DNA of 39,951 nt. Source: Collinsella intestinalis DSM 13280 (GTDB taxonomy: Bacteria > Actinomycetota > Coriobacteriia > Coriobacteriales > Coriobacteriaceae). Below are positions 22,615-28,639 of the stretch, one piece after another. A program made the translations under genes and the position numbers. Each line of letters opens with the position of its first letter. Position 1 is the stretch's first letter. The stretch is from contig NZ_GG692711.1 of assembly GCF_000156175.1 (NCBI RefSeq), positions 225,320-265,270 of the forward strand. The letters run 5' to 3'. Under the pieces are notes generated by a model. That model made no database searches, was not told the origin of the DNA, and saw only the letters and a list, made by a program, of their open reading frames with translations.

Positions 22615-23991
22615 CTACAGCGGATTGACCTCAAGCAGCAGAGACGATGACGCACGGTCATATGACGCGCCGAGGACTTTCGACGCAAAGTCATGGCAAC
22701 CGGCCACCGTGAACGAGGGGAAATCCTCAGTCGTCTCCACGTTGTTCCCGCCCGCGAGCTCGTCACTGTAGTCGGCGAGACGATAGACTCGCATCTCCGT
22801 ATCCGATCGAGATGTCTTGTGCATCACGGTCGGCTGGATGGAACACGAGGTGATCGCGCACACATCGCCGATCTTCTCCACCGTGAGACCGGCGAGACCC
22901 CCGACGGTCCGCGGCGCTTCCATCTGACGTGAGATGAGATTGCCAAGCGACCAGAAGACCGGCACGCGCCGTCCATCTGGTCGAGATATCAATTCAACGG
23001 GCTGCAAAACATGCGGATGCGTTCCGATGATCGCGTCCACCCCAGCCTCAATCAGACGAGAGGCGAGACGTCGTTGCGCCGCATTTGGCTCGTAGACATA
23101 CTCAGTCCCCCAGTGAGGGCAAGCGATGACGATGTCGGCTCCCGCCTCGCGAGCGCGGGTGACATCCGCCGCGAAGTTCGACCTGTATAAGCTTTTGACA
23201 CAATACGGATGCTCAGCCGGCATGGGGATGCCATTGGTGGTCTCGGTGTAGCTGAGAATCGCAACCGCGATGCGACCGCGAGTGGCGATATGCGGCCTAT
23301 CTGCCGCTTCATTCGAATCGGCAATGCCCGGCACGAGCATCTCAGGATGCCTTTCGCGCCAAAAACGCAGGGTTGCTTCAATCCCCTCGAAGCCCTTGTC
23401 GAGCGCATGGTTAGTCGCAGCGAGAGTGACATCGATGCCGGCGGCCGCTTCGGCATCGCCGAGCTCCTGGGGACTGTTGAAGGTCGGGAAACCAGATAGA
23501 CCCATCTCCGCCCCGCCCAACACCGTCTCCTGGTTGATTATCGCTATGTCGGCAGATTTGAACGTGGGCGCGATCGCACTGAAAAGATGGTCGTAATTGC
23601 GCGTGCCGTCGGCGCGCTCGCCGCTCATCCAAATGCCGCGATGCGCCAAGACGTCTCCGCCCATGACGATTGAGATACGATGCGCGCCCCGTTCGCTGTC
23701 CTGAATCGTCGCAAGCGAAGCGTGGCCCGCAGCGTCGAAGTCGCGCGATCCCGCCTCACCGGGGAGCCCCGAACAGCCCGTTGCACATGTGGCCACAACC
23801 ATGCCGAATCCCGCCGCGGCGGTTGCCAGGAAACGGCGACGGGTCATGCCGCCGGCAAGTGCAGACCCGAGCCGTTCGTCCATCGCAGAGTGAGTGGATG
23901 GCGCACACGCAGGACCGTCCTCACGGCCGAATCGGGCATCGGGGCAGTGGGGACCGAAATGGGACCCAAAAAGGGCCTCGTTCTTAGACAT
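22615..23991 (-). CDS. CapA-family putative lipoprotein (poly-gamma-glutamate capsule type)
   Basis: The 458-residue product has the CapA metallophosphoesterase-like fold: MGGDVLAHRG, ADIAIINQETVLGG, TLAATNHALDKGFEGIEAT, HWGTEYVYEPN, GVDAIIGTHPHVLQPVE and FWSLGNLI. In Bacillus CapA takes part in poly-gamma-glutamate surface polymer production; many homologues are uncharacterised. A Tat-type signal MTRRRFLATAAAGFG with a later TGC lipobox-like site suggests export and lipid anchoring. The most likely start, ATG at 23991, overlaps the stop of the upstream spermidine-synthase-like gene (ATGTCTAA) and gives a 48-residue segment before the Tat motif; a start at MTRRRF is the alternative. No other capsule genes lie nearby, so the role is open. 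Confidence 0.8.
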   Translation of the reverse strand: MSKNEALFGSHFGPHCPDARFGREDGPACAPSTHSAMDERLGSALAGGMTRRRFLATAAAGFGMVVATCATGCSGLPGEAGSRDFDAAGHASLATIQDSERGAHRISIVMGGDVLAHRGIWMSGERADGTRNYDHLFSAIAPTFKSADIAIINQETVLGGAEMGLSGFPTFNSPQELGDAEAAAGIDVTLAATNHALDKGFEGIEATLRFWRERHPEMLVPGIADSNEAADRPHIATRGRIAVAILSYTETTNGIPMPAEHPYCVKSLYRSNFAADVTRAREAGADIVIACPHWGTEYVYEPNAAQRRLASRLIEAGVDAIIGTHPHVLQPVELISRPDGRRVPVFWSLGNLISRQMEAPRTVGGLAGLTVEKIGDVCAITSCSIQPTVMHKTSRSDTEMRVYRLADYSDELAGGNNVETTEDFPSFTVAGCHDFASKVLGASYDRASSSLLLEVNPL

Positions 23992-24874
23992 CGCGCATGA
24001 CCTCGCCGTACAAGGCTTCATCGAGAGGCAGTTCGCCATGGAAGGAATACGCGCCGTCAGTTGCAATGAGCAGGTAGTTGTCCTCAGCGCCAAACGCGGC
24101 ATCCTCGCAAGGAACCACATGGACATGCGAGAATACCGCTGCAGCGGTCGCGACGGCGTCGCGGAGATAATCGATGTTCTCCCCACCCGCGGAGCTAACG
24201 ACATTCGCCAGGTACAAACCTCCGGGATTCAGGCAGACCTTGACCTGGCACAGGGCCTCCACCGTGGCGAGAGCGTGAACGGGCTCGCAGCCCGCAAAGC
24301 AATCGTTCACAACTGCATCGTAGCGAGTCCCCTCGGCAAGGGCCTGGGAGATGAACGTGCGTGCGTCCGCCGTGATCAGACGCAGCCGATCGGCGGCGAT
24401 GCGCTCGAGCTCATCGAGGAAAAACCACCGGCGAGCCAGCCTCGTAATGGAGGGGTCGATTTCAACGACATCCATATCGAGGGCCGGATGCGCAGTGAGC
24501 GCGTGCTTGGGATACGCGTATCCGCCGCCGCCCATCACGAGCACGCGATCGATGCCGCCACCCGTTGCCGCGCGCTTGGACGCCTCGGCATCGAACATGC
24601 GGTCGAACGCCCGGTAGTACGCGAACACCGGATCAAAGCGTCGCCCATCCAAATACGTGGCGCTCTGATACACGCCGCCCTGCTGGAGAACGCGAACCTG
24701 ATTGCCCGCCCCATCTCGAACCTTCTTCACCCGCGCCATGCCCGACCTGGTGCGCACGAGCTGCAGGCATTGAGACCCTACAAAAATCGCCGCCGCGCCG
24801 ACGGCGACGGCGCCGAGGGCCACCCCCGCCGCAATTCCGGCGCCCGCAGAAGCATTCGAGGGCTTTTGGGTCAT
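23984..24874 (-). CDS. Spermidine synthase-like aminopropyltransferase/methyltransferase-fold protein
   Basis: This 296-residue protein has an N-terminal hydrophobic segment (GIAAGVALGAVAVGAAAIFVG) and then a spermidine-synthase-type Rossmann domain: VLVMGGGGYAYPKHAL, DMDVVEIDPSITRLARRWF, LRLITADARTFI and YDAVVNDCFAGCEPVHAL. The GGGGY..P and E-I-D-P patterns are those of the family, but classical spermidine synthases have GGGDGG and a catalytic DSTDP-like motif; here the position reads NDCFAG, so polyamine synthesis is uncertain. The membrane anchor is also unusual. AAAGGAG precedes the ATG, which overlaps the elp3 stop as ATGA; the gene is coupled to elp3 upstream and to the CapA-like gene downstream. 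Confidence 0.72.
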   Translation of the reverse strand: MTQKPSNASAGAGIAAGVALGAVAVGAAAIFVGSQCLQLVRTRSGMARVKKVRDGAGNQVRVLQQGGVYQSATYLDGRRFDPVFAYYRAFDRMFDAEASKRAATGGGIDRVLVMGGGGYAYPKHALTAHPALDMDVVEIDPSITRLARRWFFLDELERIAADRLRLITADARTFISQALAEGTRYDAVVNDCFAGCEPVHALATVEALCQVKVCLNPGGLYLANVVSSAGGENIDYLRDAVATAAAVFSHVHVVPCEDAAFGAEDNYLLIATDGAYSFHGELPLDEALYGEVMRDV

Positions 24875-26799
24875 GAGAGCTCCTTTTGCTGATACAGGCC
24901 ACAATCGATGAAGCCGAGATGGCGATAGTACTCACGCGTGCCCACCGCGCTGATCACATTGAGGCGGCTGTAACCCGCCTCACGAGCGATCTCGGAGGCC
25001 CGCTCGATGAGGCGGCGGCCCAAGCCAAGATGCTGGGCAGATGTTCCACCCACACCGAGCTGCGTGGCCATGCCGTACACATGGACCTCGCGAATCATCG
25101 CCTCACCAGGCGCGACGGGCAGGCACCCGCCCCCAGAGCAGGCCGCCTCGGATTCAAGGCCCACCTCGCGGGGAGCGGGAAACGAGCGCACATACTCCTC
25201 GTTTGGCAGAGACAGGCGCAGGAAACCCGCAATGCGGTTCTCGGGCGTCACCCACTGCAGGAAGTGCTCGCACGTGTTCGATGTCCCATACGAGACGTCC
25301 TCCATGCGCAGCTCATCGACAGGAACTTCGCCCGTGGCGACCTCGCGAAAACGAATCTCCTGGATGCCGCGCACATCCCCCTGAGAACGCAGACGGTTCT
25401 CGACGAGCTGGCGAAGGTTCGGCTTCTTGTTCCCCGCCACGATGTCGTGCGATGAAAAGTCACGGATCATGCGAGAGATCCGGCAAAACGGAGGGGTTGC
25501 GGCGACGTCGCTTACCAGAATGTCGAGCAACTCCGCCTCGGAATAGGGCGCCCATTCTCCCGCCTCGAAGCGCTCCTGCAGTCGGGCGCCCTCGATAAGC
25601 GCGCATGGGTAGAGCTTGATCTCGTCGGGCTGGAACGGCAAGCCGCGCACAAGGCGCAGGTAGTCGTCCTTATCCCGTTCCGGCGTAGAACCCAGCAGGT
25701 TGACCATCGCGTGCGCGTGGATTTTGAACCCGAACACGCGCAGCAGCTCGAACGCCCGCTCGATCTGGGAGATCTCGATACCGCGATCGTTCGCATCCAG
25801 AACGGCCTGGTCAAGGGACTGAATGCCCATCTGCACCTTCGTGCATCCAAGGTGGCGGATAATCGTCAGCGAATCGGGGGTGATGGCGTCCGGCCGTGTT
25901 TCCACCACAAGTCCAACCACGCGGCAACGGGCGGTTTCGTTCTCGCGCTGCAACCGCTCGAGTTCATCGAATGTGGCGACCTGCTCGGCTGCAACGGCGT
26001 GCCAAGGAGAACCGGCACCGTAGTGCTCGGAAAATGCCTGGTTGTAAGAGCATGCATGCTCGTCCAGCCGGCGCTGAACATCTTCCGCCGCTCGACCAAA
26101 CTGCGAACCGTCTTGGGGGAATCCGAGCGTTCGGTATAGCTCTCCCCGTTCCTCGGCACTCGAACGGATGAGGATGCGGGGCTGCTCATCATCTGACGAG
26201 CGCGCGGTGGAGGCGCACGCCCCGTCCACAGCGGGCTCGAACTCGTTCAGCGCGCGGAACAGCTCCGCGATGAACCACACCTGATAACCCCGCGGATAGT
26301 CGCTCCAAGTTCCGCCGAGCACGATGAGCTCGATCTTGTCGATGGCGTGACCCATCTGGCTGAGCGCGGTCAGGCGCGAGGTGACCTGCAGATACGGATC
26401 GAACCAGTTTTGCTCGGCACGCTCGCACGCAGGCTCGTTATGCAGATAGCTCTTAGGCATGCGGATATCGTTCGGGCAAAACAGGCAATCACCGCCGCAC
26501 GGCCAGGGCTTGGTGATGACCGTGATGGTCGCCACGCCCGAGGCGCTGCGTCGCGGCTTCATGCGCAAGACGGAAAGGAGCTGCTTTTCAAGCTCGGGGG
26601 TCACGCCCCACGACTCCCAGCGAGCACGGTCATCACTCTTCACCTGCTGGTAAAACGGCAGCAAACGTCGCTTGGCGAACGCGCGCTTGTCTGAGCCGGA
26701 ACGACGCGCCGCCGCGTGCCCCATCTTGAGCAAGGTGCGATCGTCGACGTTCCGGCCGGCACGCAGCTCTTCGAGTATGTCGAGAATAATCTGTTCCAT
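24871..26799 (-). CDS. elp3: Elp3-type tRNA wobble-uridine radical SAM/GNAT enzyme
   Basis: The 642-residue protein matches Elp3, which uses S-adenosylmethionine radical chemistry and acetyl-CoA to add a carboxymethyl group (cm5) to uridine 34 of certain tRNAs. Residues 93-110 (TVITKPWPCGGDCLFCPN) carry the [4Fe-4S] cysteines C101, C105 and C108, preceded by an Elp3-like N-terminal tRNA-binding part. VIGLVVETRPD-type strand, KVQMGIQSLDQAVLDANDRG and LGSTPERD.DDYLRL continue the radical SAM barrel; EIRFREV and the end (HLGLGRRLIERA, YYRHLGF) form the GNAT domain. Standard Elp3 is about 550 residues; the extra 90 residues lie inside the barrel near 200-290. Eukaryotic Elongator partners are absent, as in other bacteria with Elp3 alone. 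The start appears leaderless. Confidence 0.92.
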   Translation of the reverse strand: MEQIILDILEELRAGRNVDDRTLLKMGHAAARRSGSDKRAFAKRRLLPFYQQVKSDDRARWESWGVTPELEKQLLSVLRMKPRRSASGVATITVITKPWPCGGDCLFCPNDIRMPKSYLHNEPACERAEQNWFDPYLQVTSRLTALSQMGHAIDKIELIVLGGTWSDYPRGYQVWFIAELFRALNEFEPAVDGACASTARSSDDEQPRILIRSSAEERGELYRTLGFPQDGSQFGRAAEDVQRRLDEHACSYNQAFSEHYGAGSPWHAVAAEQVATFDELERLQRENETARCRVVGLVVETRPDAITPDSLTIIRHLGCTKVQMGIQSLDQAVLDANDRGIEISQIERAFELLRVFGFKIHAHAMVNLLGSTPERDKDDYLRLVRGLPFQPDEIKLYPCALIEGARLQERFEAGEWAPYSEAELLDILVSDVAATPPFCRISRMIRDFSSHDIVAGNKKPNLRQLVENRLRSQGDVRGIQEIRFREVATGEVPVDELRMEDVSYGTSNTCEHFLQWVTPENRIAGFLRLSLPNEEYVRSFPAPREVGLESEAACSGGGCLPVAPGEAMIREVHVYGMATQLGVGGTSAQHLGLGRRLIERASEIAREAGYSRLNVISAVGTREYYRHLGFIDCGLYQQKELS

Positions 26800-26807
26800 G
26801 GGCCCAT

Positions 26808-26836
26808 TGTATATGAGCCCCGCGCCGCCGCCCCAA
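26808..26836 (-). promoter_or_regulatory. Promoter of elp3 implying a leaderless transcript
   Basis: On the minus strand TTGGGG (26831-26836), a 17-base spacer and TATACA (26808-26813) form a promoter. Only eight bases separate the -10 from the elp3 ATG at 26799, so transcription would start at or within two bases of the start codon. No ribosome binding site precedes it. Confidence 0.55.
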
Positions 26837-26856
26837 CGGATGCAAGCCGAGCCACA

Positions 26857-26884
26857 TTGTCGTCCCTGTGTTCCGCTTTACAAT
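26857..26884 (+). promoter_or_regulatory. Promoter of the Trm9-like methyltransferase gene
   Basis: TTGTCG (26857-26862), a 16-base spacer and TACAAT (26879-26884) predict a start near 26891 and a 32-base leader ending in GGGAG before the ATG. It is back-to-back with the elp3 promoter. Confidence 0.55.
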
Positions 26885-26922
26885 AGCCGTACCGATATGA
26901 TCGCATTTTTGCCGGGAGCCCC

Positions 26923-27756
26923 ATGGACCTCACCACTGCGCACGAACTCATCGAGCTCAACAACCGCTTTTACGCCGAGCACGCCGCATCATTCTCCGCA
27001 ACGCGCAGCGCGCCGTGGGAGGGTTGGAATCGCGCGGCCGAGCTCTTGACGCAGCTCCGTTGGCCTCGAGCGCACAACGGCGGCGCCAGCTGCCATTCGC
27101 CGCTCGTCCTCGATCTCGCCTGCGGCAACCTACGCTTCGAACGGTTCCTCCTCAACGCCTTTCCCGACGTCGATCTCCGATTCCACGCGGTCGACGCCTG
27201 TGCCGACCTCGCGAAAGACGCCTCCCAGATCCCCGGCGCGGACTTTTACGAGATGGATGTTCTCGGAAGCTTTCTAGATGACTGGGCACGGCTCGGCGAC
27301 CTTGGACACACCGTCCCGAATCGCCGACTCGCCGACGCCGGCATCCCCGAGTGCGATTTGGCCGTTTGCTTTGGTTTCATGCATCATGTCCCGGGGTTTG
27401 ACATGAGGGCGTCCGTGCTCGACGCAATCGTTGAGCGCACCGCGCTCGGCGGGGTTGCGATTGTTTCATTTTGGCAGTTCATGCGCGATGAGAGACTGGC
27501 GCGCAAGGCCCTCGCGGCCGATTCCGCCGCCCGCGAGTCCGCGTCAAGCGGCACGTTCCCGCTCGACGAAAACGACCACTTCCTCGGCTGGCAATCCGAC
27601 CCCTCCCCCTTGCGCTACTGCCATCATTTTGACGAATCGGAAATCGACGAGCTTGTAGCATCTGTGGGAACATGCGCCCGCGAGGTCGCGCGCTACTCCG
27701 CGGACGGGGGCTCTGGTACCCTCAATCGGTACCTCATGCTCGAGCGATTCGCATAA
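26923..27756 (+). CDS. Trm9/ALKBH8-like SAM-dependent methyltransferase
   Basis: The 277-residue protein is a class I methyltransferase: VLDLACGNLRFE at 62-71 is the SAM-binding motif I, followed by FHAVDACADL (the acidic motif II) and DLAVCFGFMHHVPG (motif IV region). Its N-terminus NRFYAEHAASFSATRSAPW (14-32) resembles the Y..IA..FS.TR..PW segment of yeast Trm9 and the methyltransferase part of ALKBH8, which methylate cm5U34 of tRNA to mcm5U34. Those enzymes act directly after Elp3, and here the gene sits divergently next to elp3 with 123 bases between the starts. The functional match is an inference from the motif and the context; a different small-molecule or protein substrate is possible. 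Confidence 0.75.
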   Translation: MDLTTAHELIELNNRFYAEHAASFSATRSAPWEGWNRAAELLTQLRWPRAHNGGASCHSPLVLDLACGNLRFERFLLNAFPDVDLRFHAVDACADLAKDASQIPGADFYEMDVLGSFLDDWARLGDLGHTVPNRRLADAGIPECDLAVCFGFMHHVPGFDMRASVLDAIVERTALGGVAIVSFWQFMRDERLARKALAADSAARESASSGTFPLDENDHFLGWQSDPSPLRYCHHFDESEIDELVASVGTCAREVARYSADGGSGTLNRYLMLERFA

Positions 27757-27802
27757 TTAACCCGCTCCGACCAGAAGCTCCAATCCCATCCGAGAGGCCC
27801 CC

Positions 27803-28639
27803 ATGCACGCACGTATGCCCAAGAACTTCGTCCTCGACCAGCGCATCGAGCGCGCGTCCGACGCCATCGAGACCGGCGCTGCGGCGTACCGGGGCCGTTG
27901 GGCCGAAGCATGCTGCCCGCTCATTCCGGGCGGCGTCGAGTGCTTCGATCATGTGCATCTCGATTTGGGCTGCGGCAAGGGCGCCTATATCGCCGCCATG
28001 GCGCAGCGCCACCCCGATACCCTGTTCATCGGCATGGACAGCGAGCCCGTGTGCGTTGTGCACGCAGCCCAGCTCGTTCTCGACCTGGGTCTCAAAAACG
28101 CGCTGGTCATTCCCGGCGATGCCGCCAACCTCGCCGGAATCTTTGCGCCCGGCGAACTCTCGAGCATCTCCATCAACTTCCCCACGCCCCATCCCAAGCG
28201 CCGCCATGCGCGACTTCGCGTAACCACGGCCGAACATCTCGACGGGTATCGGTCACTCATCGCCGAGGGCGGCATGCTCACGCTTCGCACCGACAGCCTG
28301 CCGCTGTATGAGTATTCGTTACCGCAGTTCAAAGCCATTGGATGGGAAGTGGTGTGCGCCACGTATGACGATCGCACCGCCCATCCCGAGCAGCCCATCA
28401 CCGAGTACGAGCAGCGTCTCACCGAACAGGGCGCGACTGTGCACGCGGTCTATGCGAGGCCCGCGAGCAAGCCTGCCACGCCCGAGCAGCTCCAATCCGC
28501 CCTCGATATGCCCCAGAGCCTCATCGACTATCTGCCTGAGGACCTTTTCGCCGAGGGCTATATCCCGTACGGCATGAGCTACGCCGTCGACAACCTTCGA
28601 AATCGTCGCCAACATCTCGCAGCGCGACAAAATGTATAA
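27803..28639 (+). CDS. TrmB-like tRNA (guanine-N7) methyltransferase homologue
   Basis: The 278-residue protein has a class I methyltransferase core with HLDLGCGKGAYIAAMA at about 52-67, FIGMDSEP, and NFPTPHPKRRHARLRVT around 128-144, which matches the TrmB block N-F-x-D-P-W-P-K-K-R-H but with T-P-H-P instead of D-P-W-P. LRTD follows. TrmB makes m7G46 in the tRNA variable loop. The altered block and a longer C-terminal tail suggest either a divergent TrmB or a related enzyme. Start: GAGAGG five bases before ATG; a second ATG four codons on is possible. It is the third tRNA-modification-type gene in a row, 46 bases after the Trm9-like gene and likely cotranscribed. Confidence 0.78.
   Translation: MHARMPKNFVLDQRIERASDAIETGAAAYRGRWAEACCPLIPGGVECFDHVHLDLGCGKGAYIAAMAQRHPDTLFIGMDSEPVCVVHAAQLVLDLGLKNALVIPGDAANLAGIFAPGELSSISINFPTPHPKRRHARLRVTTAEHLDGYRSLIAEGGMLTLRTDSLPLYEYSLPQFKAIGWEVVCATYDDRTAHPEQPITEYEQRLTEQGATVHAVYARPASKPATPEQLQSALDMPQSLIDYLPEDLFAEGYIPYGMSYAVDNLRNRRQHLAARQNV

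Follow-up and report, generated by a model that had tools for sequence, protein, structure and literature searches.

A conserved elp3–methyltransferase gene pair in Collinsella intestinalis and other actinobacteria as a candidate bacterial route to the tRNA wobble nucleoside mcm5U34

We analyzed a 39,951-nucleotide stretch of the Collinsella intestinalis DSM 13280 genome (hereafter the window; contig NZ_GG692711.1, positions 225320–265270; genome 1.81 Mb, 99.96% complete) in which elp3 is divergently arranged with a gene encoding a class I methyltransferase, P0002. This conserved gene pair is very probably a bacterial route to 5-methoxycarbonylmethyluridine at tRNA position 34 (mcm5U34), as judged from comparison with known proteins. 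The neighborhood of the two genes recurs across the class Coriobacteriia and in other actinobacterial lineages, confirming that it exceeds chance. The likely scheme is that Elp3 makes 5-carboxymethyluridine (cm5U34) and that a Trm9-like enzyme esterifies it to mcm5U34, which would constitute a two-enzyme bacterial Elongator–Trm9 route. The proposal is based on observed gene content, homology, residue conservation, linkage, and co-occurrence.

Among 119 genomes of the class, 50 carried a strong elp3 match (E value of 9.2e-69 or better), 46 of them above the curated cut-off, while the best elp3 match in the other 69 genomes was 4.3e-13 with partial coverage of the model. The methyltransferase family, searched for with a 45-member profile, was matched in 49 of the 50 strong-elp3 genomes, three of these matches being partial or split (G058, G076, and G065). 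The 69 genomes without strong elp3 yielded two weak matches (G127, 3.4e-5; G122, 4.9e-4). Families f2, f5, and f17 each included genomes with both genes and genomes with neither, and genus g23 had both genes in three genomes and neither in one (G082). The 49 pairs comprised 46 in head-to-head orientation, two co-directional neighbors, and one on separate contigs; 48 were located on one contig, with a largest gap of 3.9 kilobases (kb) between the matches. The Fisher value for the association (6.5e-33) is uncorrected for kinship and was not leaned on.

A sample of 296 genomes from the phylum, which shared 17 of its elp3-positive genomes with the class sample, contained elp3 at an E value of 1e-40 or better in 23 genomes, and all 23 also encoded the methyltransferase. 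Three weak methyltransferase matches (6e-8 to 7e-6) were found in the 273 genomes without elp3. Six elp3-positive genomes were from outside the class (G172, G196, G208, G345, G374, and G384); the genes were head-to-head in four of them and both lay near contig ends in the other two. The co-occurrence of elp3 with this methyltransferase across genomes, proposed as a check in a preliminary description of this DNA, was thus borne out in both samples.

A scan of contigs detected 237 relatives of the methyltransferase, and the best 80 were kept as named loci; the search patterns came from the Coriobacteriia family, so that the scan favors Coriobacteriia. Among these 80 loci, elp3 was positioned divergently upstream of the methyltransferase gene in 76, some of the elp3 genes being cut by the end of the stretch. 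The four loci without upstream elp3 (L037, L062, L075, and L086) each had the methyltransferase gene at most 2.1 kb from a contig edge. The closest named relative of P0002 among the best 80 of the 237 was a locus titled Collinsella, with 79% identity. The pair was present in named strains of Collinsella, Slackia, Adlercreutzia, Atopobium, and Raoultibacter, and the role of bacterial Elp3 is therefore directly testable.

Two genomes showed unusual arrangements of the pair. In G065 (L143, G065:C9:165000-176000), elp3 and the methyltransferase gene each lack the end that faces the other, a pattern that a single event could have produced. G084 has two copies of the methyltransferase gene (G084:C6:123767-124519 and G084:C4:255276-256094), one adjoining elp3 and one elsewhere.

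The Elp3 protein scored 391 bits against TIGR01211, above the curated cut-off of 350, and all nine of its matches in the Protein Data Bank (PDB) at an E value of 0.001 were named Elp3 or Elongator complex protein 3. Its residues C101, C105, and C108 aligned with the cluster cysteines C23, C27, and C30 of 5l7j, which we take to be the Dehalococcoides protein DmcElp3, and K155, K359, E571, and Y624 aligned with K77, K193, E386, and Y441 of the same structure (positions counted by hand). The latter four are residues named for DmcElp3 in PMC6367351. Each of the seven residues was kept in at least 97% of 72 aligned Elp3 sequences, namely P0001 from the window, 67 longer than 560 amino acids (aa) out of the 76 elp3-bearing named loci, and four from outside the class. 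The Coriobacteriia Elp3 proteins also contain a poorly conserved insert of about 90 residues (approximately residues 189–278 here) that is missing from the four Elp3 proteins outside the class.

P0002 fell below every curated Pfam cut-off (Methyltransf_12, 22.9 bits against 30) and gave nothing at an E value of 0.05 against NCBIfam. Pfam matched the 45 family members with generic methyltransferase models only, apart from one stray PID match. Family profiles were needed because Pfam, NCBIfam, and the fold by itself pointed no further than to a generic methyltransferase. When a 45-member profile that included P0002 was searched against 177,635 distinct PDB sequences, 5cm2, the Trm9 of Yarrowia, ranked first (E value 6.9e-6; next match 2e-4). 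Six homologous proteins from outside the class shared 22–25% identity with P0002. One of them alone, searched against the PDB, also retrieved 5cm2 first (9.8e-18; next 2.2e-15), as did a joint profile of 20 members that included all six (6.5e-17; next 3.3e-9), whose alignment spanned residues 2–183 of the 205 in 5cm2. A joint bacterial profile gave yeast Trm9 67 bits and 5cm2 54 bits. A search of phage records revealed no relative of P0002 at an E value of 1e-5. The methyltransferase of G208, the only protein queried against a plasmid collection, matched 620 records, of which 25 were inspected and four taken for comparison.

To examine the residues mapped in Trm9, we aligned 45 Coriobacteriia proteins and six from other bacteria to 5cm2 and yeast Trm9, the yeast sequence being presumed correct. 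R29, H115, R241, and N271 of yeast Trm9 were identical in all 51 bacterial proteins, and their counterparts in P0002 (R28, H154, R231, and N268) were invariant in 45 of 45 Coriobacteriia members. Mutation of these four yeast residues or of Y243 lowers tRNA affinity and activity, according to PMC5372719. The family also shares the FSxTRxxPW, HH, and RYxH motifs and the C-terminal Asn of Trm9. Among seven comparison methyltransferases aligned likewise, six lacked the complete four-residue pattern. The seventh, encoded on a plasmid of the haloarchaeon Natronorubrum, had all four residues; with the Trm9 pattern present, it was treated as a relative instead of a control. In the elp3-negative genomes G225, G359, and G395, the weak matches lacked the full pattern. 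The resemblance to Trm9 suggested in the preliminary description, where the stretch NRFYAEHAASFSATRSAPW (residues 14–32 of the methyltransferase) had been quoted, held up in this comparison: Trm9 was the best-ranked solved protein by profile, and four of the five mapped residues were kept.

The Natronorubrum protein (L148 2456-3166), which is labeled only as a class I SAM-dependent (S-adenosylmethionine-dependent) methyltransferase, looks like an archaeal Trm9 by its sequence.

An AlphaFold2 model of P0002 had a class I fold, with a predicted local distance difference test score (pLDDT) of 92.7 and a predicted template modeling score (pTM) of 0.91. Foldseek placed 5cm2 at rank 4, and 5cm2 was not among the 50 entries listed by VIA-align. 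The latter program was led by METTL6 structures (Z 19.9, root-mean-square deviation 3.1, 220 aligned residues), which raises the alternative that P0002 belongs with METTL2, METTL6, and METTL8 as an m3C32 tRNA methyltransferase or is another anticodon-loop enzyme using Elp3-modified tRNA. However, the lead of METTL6 is small, with other methyltransferases at Z 17 to 19, and a METTL6-like role was set aside on this ground. Moreover, no METTL chain was present among the best 60 of the 78 PDB matches of the joint profile, and the motif pattern of the family is that of Trm9. We regard an enzyme of this kind as highly improbable.

Several results weigh against identifying the pair as a Trm9-type route. 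P0002 as a lone query against the PDB found nothing, and a 10-member family profile placed 5cm2 fourth, with an E value of 0.027. The match between the 45-member profile and 5cm2 is remote (28.8 bits, best single stretch 1e-4) and aligned only the central part. The three best elp3-negative generic methyltransferases reached 42 to 44 bits with the joint bacterial profile. The predicted structure does not single out Trm9, many class I enzymes being close to the model. Among the mapped residues, the invariance of the Asn depends on the alignment, since in a second one the six proteins from outside the class have theirs at a different place. Y243 is not kept: 44 of the 45 Coriobacteriia proteins have Cys at this position and one has Ala, while the six outside proteins had Cys in three and Phe, Tyr, and Val in one each. 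Trm112 (PF03966, E value 0.001) had no match in the C. intestinalis genome, though the eukaryotic enzymes use Trm112. One class genome, G119, has elp3 without a detectable methyltransferase partner; the stretch upstream of its elp3 appears to carry another gene. Finally, the co-occurrence of the genes is not independent of their linkage, because linked genes can be lost together.

The generic Pfam labels, together with a fold that is common to many small-molecule methyltransferases, would also suit a general class I methyltransferase that acts on a protein or a small molecule and is co-regulated with elp3 by chance. We consider this very unlikely, given that Trm9 ranks first by profile, that all members of the family have the four residues whereas six other methyltransferases lack at least one of them, and that distant actinobacteria show the same pairing with elp3. 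As Y243 is not conserved and the genome has no match to Trm112, we call the methyltransferase Trm9-like rather than a canonical Trm9. The pairing and the Trm9-like character of the second enzyme thus stand from the preliminary description of a candidate Elp3 and Trm9-type pair, although the enzyme departs from canonical Trm9 in these two features, with Y243 replaced mostly by Cys.

The genes for other known modifications of U34 were searched for in the same class genomes. MnmE was above its cut-off in none of the 119 genomes, including that of C. intestinalis. Partial MnmE matches occurred in 117 of them, mostly at about residues 200–340 of 446, presumably the GTPase domain, as expected of other GTPases. 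MnmG was found in one of the 119 genomes and not in that of C. intestinalis. In 14 control genomes, the MnmE and MnmG searches were each above the cut-off in nine. CmoB (TIGR00452) was above its cut-off in none of the 119 genomes, with two weak matches and none in C. intestinalis, and an explanation by uridine 5-oxyacetic acid (cmo5U) was set aside as CmoB was not found. Because MnmE, MnmG, and CmoB were not found in C. intestinalis, Elp3 is the only enzyme among those searched for that could start a 5-substituted (xm5U34) modification there. MnmA is present in the genome (284.6 bits; cut-off 236.95). PF03966 was matched in 16 of the 119 genomes, 14 of them above the cut-off, and the matching frames were 141 to 836 aa long. 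A typical bacterial Trm112, at about 60 residues (PMC5372719), is shorter than any of these. Since Trm112 had no match in the C. intestinalis genome, the second enzyme would act without it.

In the proposed scheme, Elp3 would use radical SAM chemistry and acetyl-CoA to add a carboxymethyl group to U34 of certain tRNAs, giving cm5U34. The Trm9-like enzyme would then bind the anticodon loop, with R28, H154, R231, and N268 orienting the base, and move a methyl group from SAM onto the carboxylate, yielding the ester mcm5U34. A bacterial-type thiolase, MnmA, whose gene lies elsewhere in the genome, could add a 2-thio group to form 5-methoxycarbonylmethyl-2-thiouridine (mcm5s2U34) in the tRNAs for Lys, Glu, and Gln. 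The pair would replace MnmE/MnmG, which are nearly absent from the class, and would work without Trm112. We infer the substrate, the product, and the order of the steps from homology, conserved residues, and linkage; the thiolation and the independence from Trm112 are likewise predictions. We lean toward the broader proposal that Coriobacteriia and a few other actinobacterial lineages have a complete mcm5(s2)U34 pathway in which Elp3, a Trm112-free Trm9-type enzyme, and MnmA replace MnmE/MnmG. Such a pathway would be a hybrid of a eukaryote/archaeal-type side chain and bacterial-type thiolation.

The ester might also be only an intermediate that a further enzyme converts, for example, to the amide 5-carbamoylmethyluridine (ncm5U34), so that the end product is not mcm5U. 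A yeast trm9 mutant is reported to accumulate ncm5U, and the route to have an additional step (PMC3110198), and ncm5U34 has been reported in an archaeon (PMC5372719). However, neither of the two neighboring genes surveyed is linked to the pair throughout, trmB being present in 43 and a spermidine-synthase-like gene in 41 of the 80 loci, and we judge a further conversion unlikely, though less so than the other alternatives.

The proposed mcm5U34 route resembles several known systems. The eukaryotic Elongator and Trm9–Trm112/ALKBH8 route to mcm5U34 and mcm5s2U34 likewise involves an Elp3 with radical SAM and acetyltransferase residues, and eukaryotic Trm9 has the same motif pattern and is identical at four of five mapped residues. 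In contrast to that route, which uses Trm112, C. intestinalis has no Trm112 match and mostly Cys occurs at the Y243 position in the family, thiolation would use the bacterial MnmA, and the two genes are kept together in divergent orientation. The same pair, Elp3 with a Trm9 homologue, has been predicted for the archaea Haloferax volcanii and Sulfolobus solfataricus, its genes being clustered in S. solfataricus (PMC2584109, PMC5372719), and mcm5U34 is documented in H. volcanii (PMC7663514). Unlike here, archaea often have Trm112, free or fused, and use Tuc1 for thiolation (PMC2584109, PMC5372719, PMC7663514). The bacterial family appears to be a branch separate from the archaeal Trm9 homologues. 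The MnmE/MnmG route to 5-carboxymethylaminomethyluridine (cmnm5U34) and 5-methylaminomethyluridine (mnm5U34) acts on the same base and is also bacterial but differs in its chemistry, which installs an amino side chain. DmcElp3 from Dehalococcoides is a bacterial Elp3 acting alone; according to PMC7663514, xcm5U34 derivatives lack direct evidence there.

Numerous bacteria have Elp3, according to PMC13315578. A 2020 review (PMC7663514) places Elp3 in one bacterial clade and attributes the want of direct evidence for xcm5U34 derivatives to the difficulty of culturing it, and a 2017 review (PMC5372719) states that no methyltransferases that partner Trm112 were detected in bacterial genomes. Our literature search, with preprints and most subscription journals outside its coverage, retrieved no paper on a bacterial Trm9 or a Coriobacteriia Elp3. 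mcm5U is described as typical of Eukarya (PMC2584109), and Collinsella-type bacteria may make this tRNA mark. Detection of mcm5U in them would show Trm9 chemistry in bacteria, probably without Trm112.

The layout of the locus is given in Table 1. The arrangement reported in the preliminary description, an intact elp3 divergent from the methyltransferase gene and followed by a TrmB-like gene with an altered block, was confirmed by the coordinates and by the TrmB sequence NFPTPHPKRRH.

Table 1 Features of the elp3–methyltransferase locus, with positions in the window.
Feature	Position	Strand	Size	Description
elp3	24871–26799	−	642 aa, without internal stop	Radical SAM/GNAT enzyme, predicted to make cm5U34
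Intergenic region	26800–26922		123 bases	Between divergent elp3 and methyltransferase gene; promoters presumed
Methyltransferase gene (P0002)	26923–27756	+	277 aa	Trm9-like class I SAM enzyme; predicted cm5U34 carboxyl O-methyltransferase
trmB homologue (P0003)	27803–28639	+	278 aa	tRNA m7G46 methyltransferase family; read as a neighbor outside the pathway
Spermidine-synthase-like gene	23984–24874	−		NF037959, 81.9 bits; Spermine_synth, 33.4 bits

P0003 scored 125.6 bits against TIGR00091, above the cut-off of 112.65, which was passed in only two of 29 relatives, and 119.9 against NF001080, below the cut-off of 132. It is the only match to the TrmB family in the genome. Where present in the named loci, trmB was on the same strand as the methyltransferase gene and downstream of it, and all 43 such loci were titled Collinsella, Enorma, or Coriobacteriaceae. 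The block NFPTPHPKRRH corresponds to NFSDPWPKKRH in 1yzh and 7nyb, so that DPW is changed to TPH and both the Asp, which we take to be catalytic, and the Trp are replaced. The downstream position on the same strand and the altered block could be read as signs that the TrmB-like protein, too, modifies the wobble base and that the locus is a three-enzyme one. Such a role appears scarcely plausible, since P0003 is the sole TrmB match in the genome and 37 loci gave no trmB; elp3 nonetheless adjoins the methyltransferase gene in 33 of these, although some of the 37 stretches are short. The earlier suggestion that three tRNA-modification enzymes in a row form a dedicated locus is not supported, because the genome has no other TrmB match and trmB was found in 43 of the 80 loci. 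For the same reasons, and as all 43 loci belong to the Collinsella/Enorma/Coriobacteriaceae group, the simplest reading is that trmB encodes the usual m7G46 enzyme and that its gene lies close to the pair within this group. The altered TPH block is odd and is a matter separate from the elp3–methyltransferase pair.

A scan upstream of the methyltransferase gene gave a single sigma-70-like site at 26857–26884 on the plus strand (9/12), which was no better than those in shuffles of the scanned region. On the other side of elp3, the ATG of the spermidine-synthase-like gene overlaps the elp3 stop codon (ATGA), and an upstream TTG at 24904 is open as well. In the 41 named loci that have it, this gene lies 3′ of elp3 and at most 356 bases away, measured between match ends. 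In G208 (L134 9178-10992), an NAD synthetase-like gene near the pair appears, by eye, to contain an in-frame intein-like insert.

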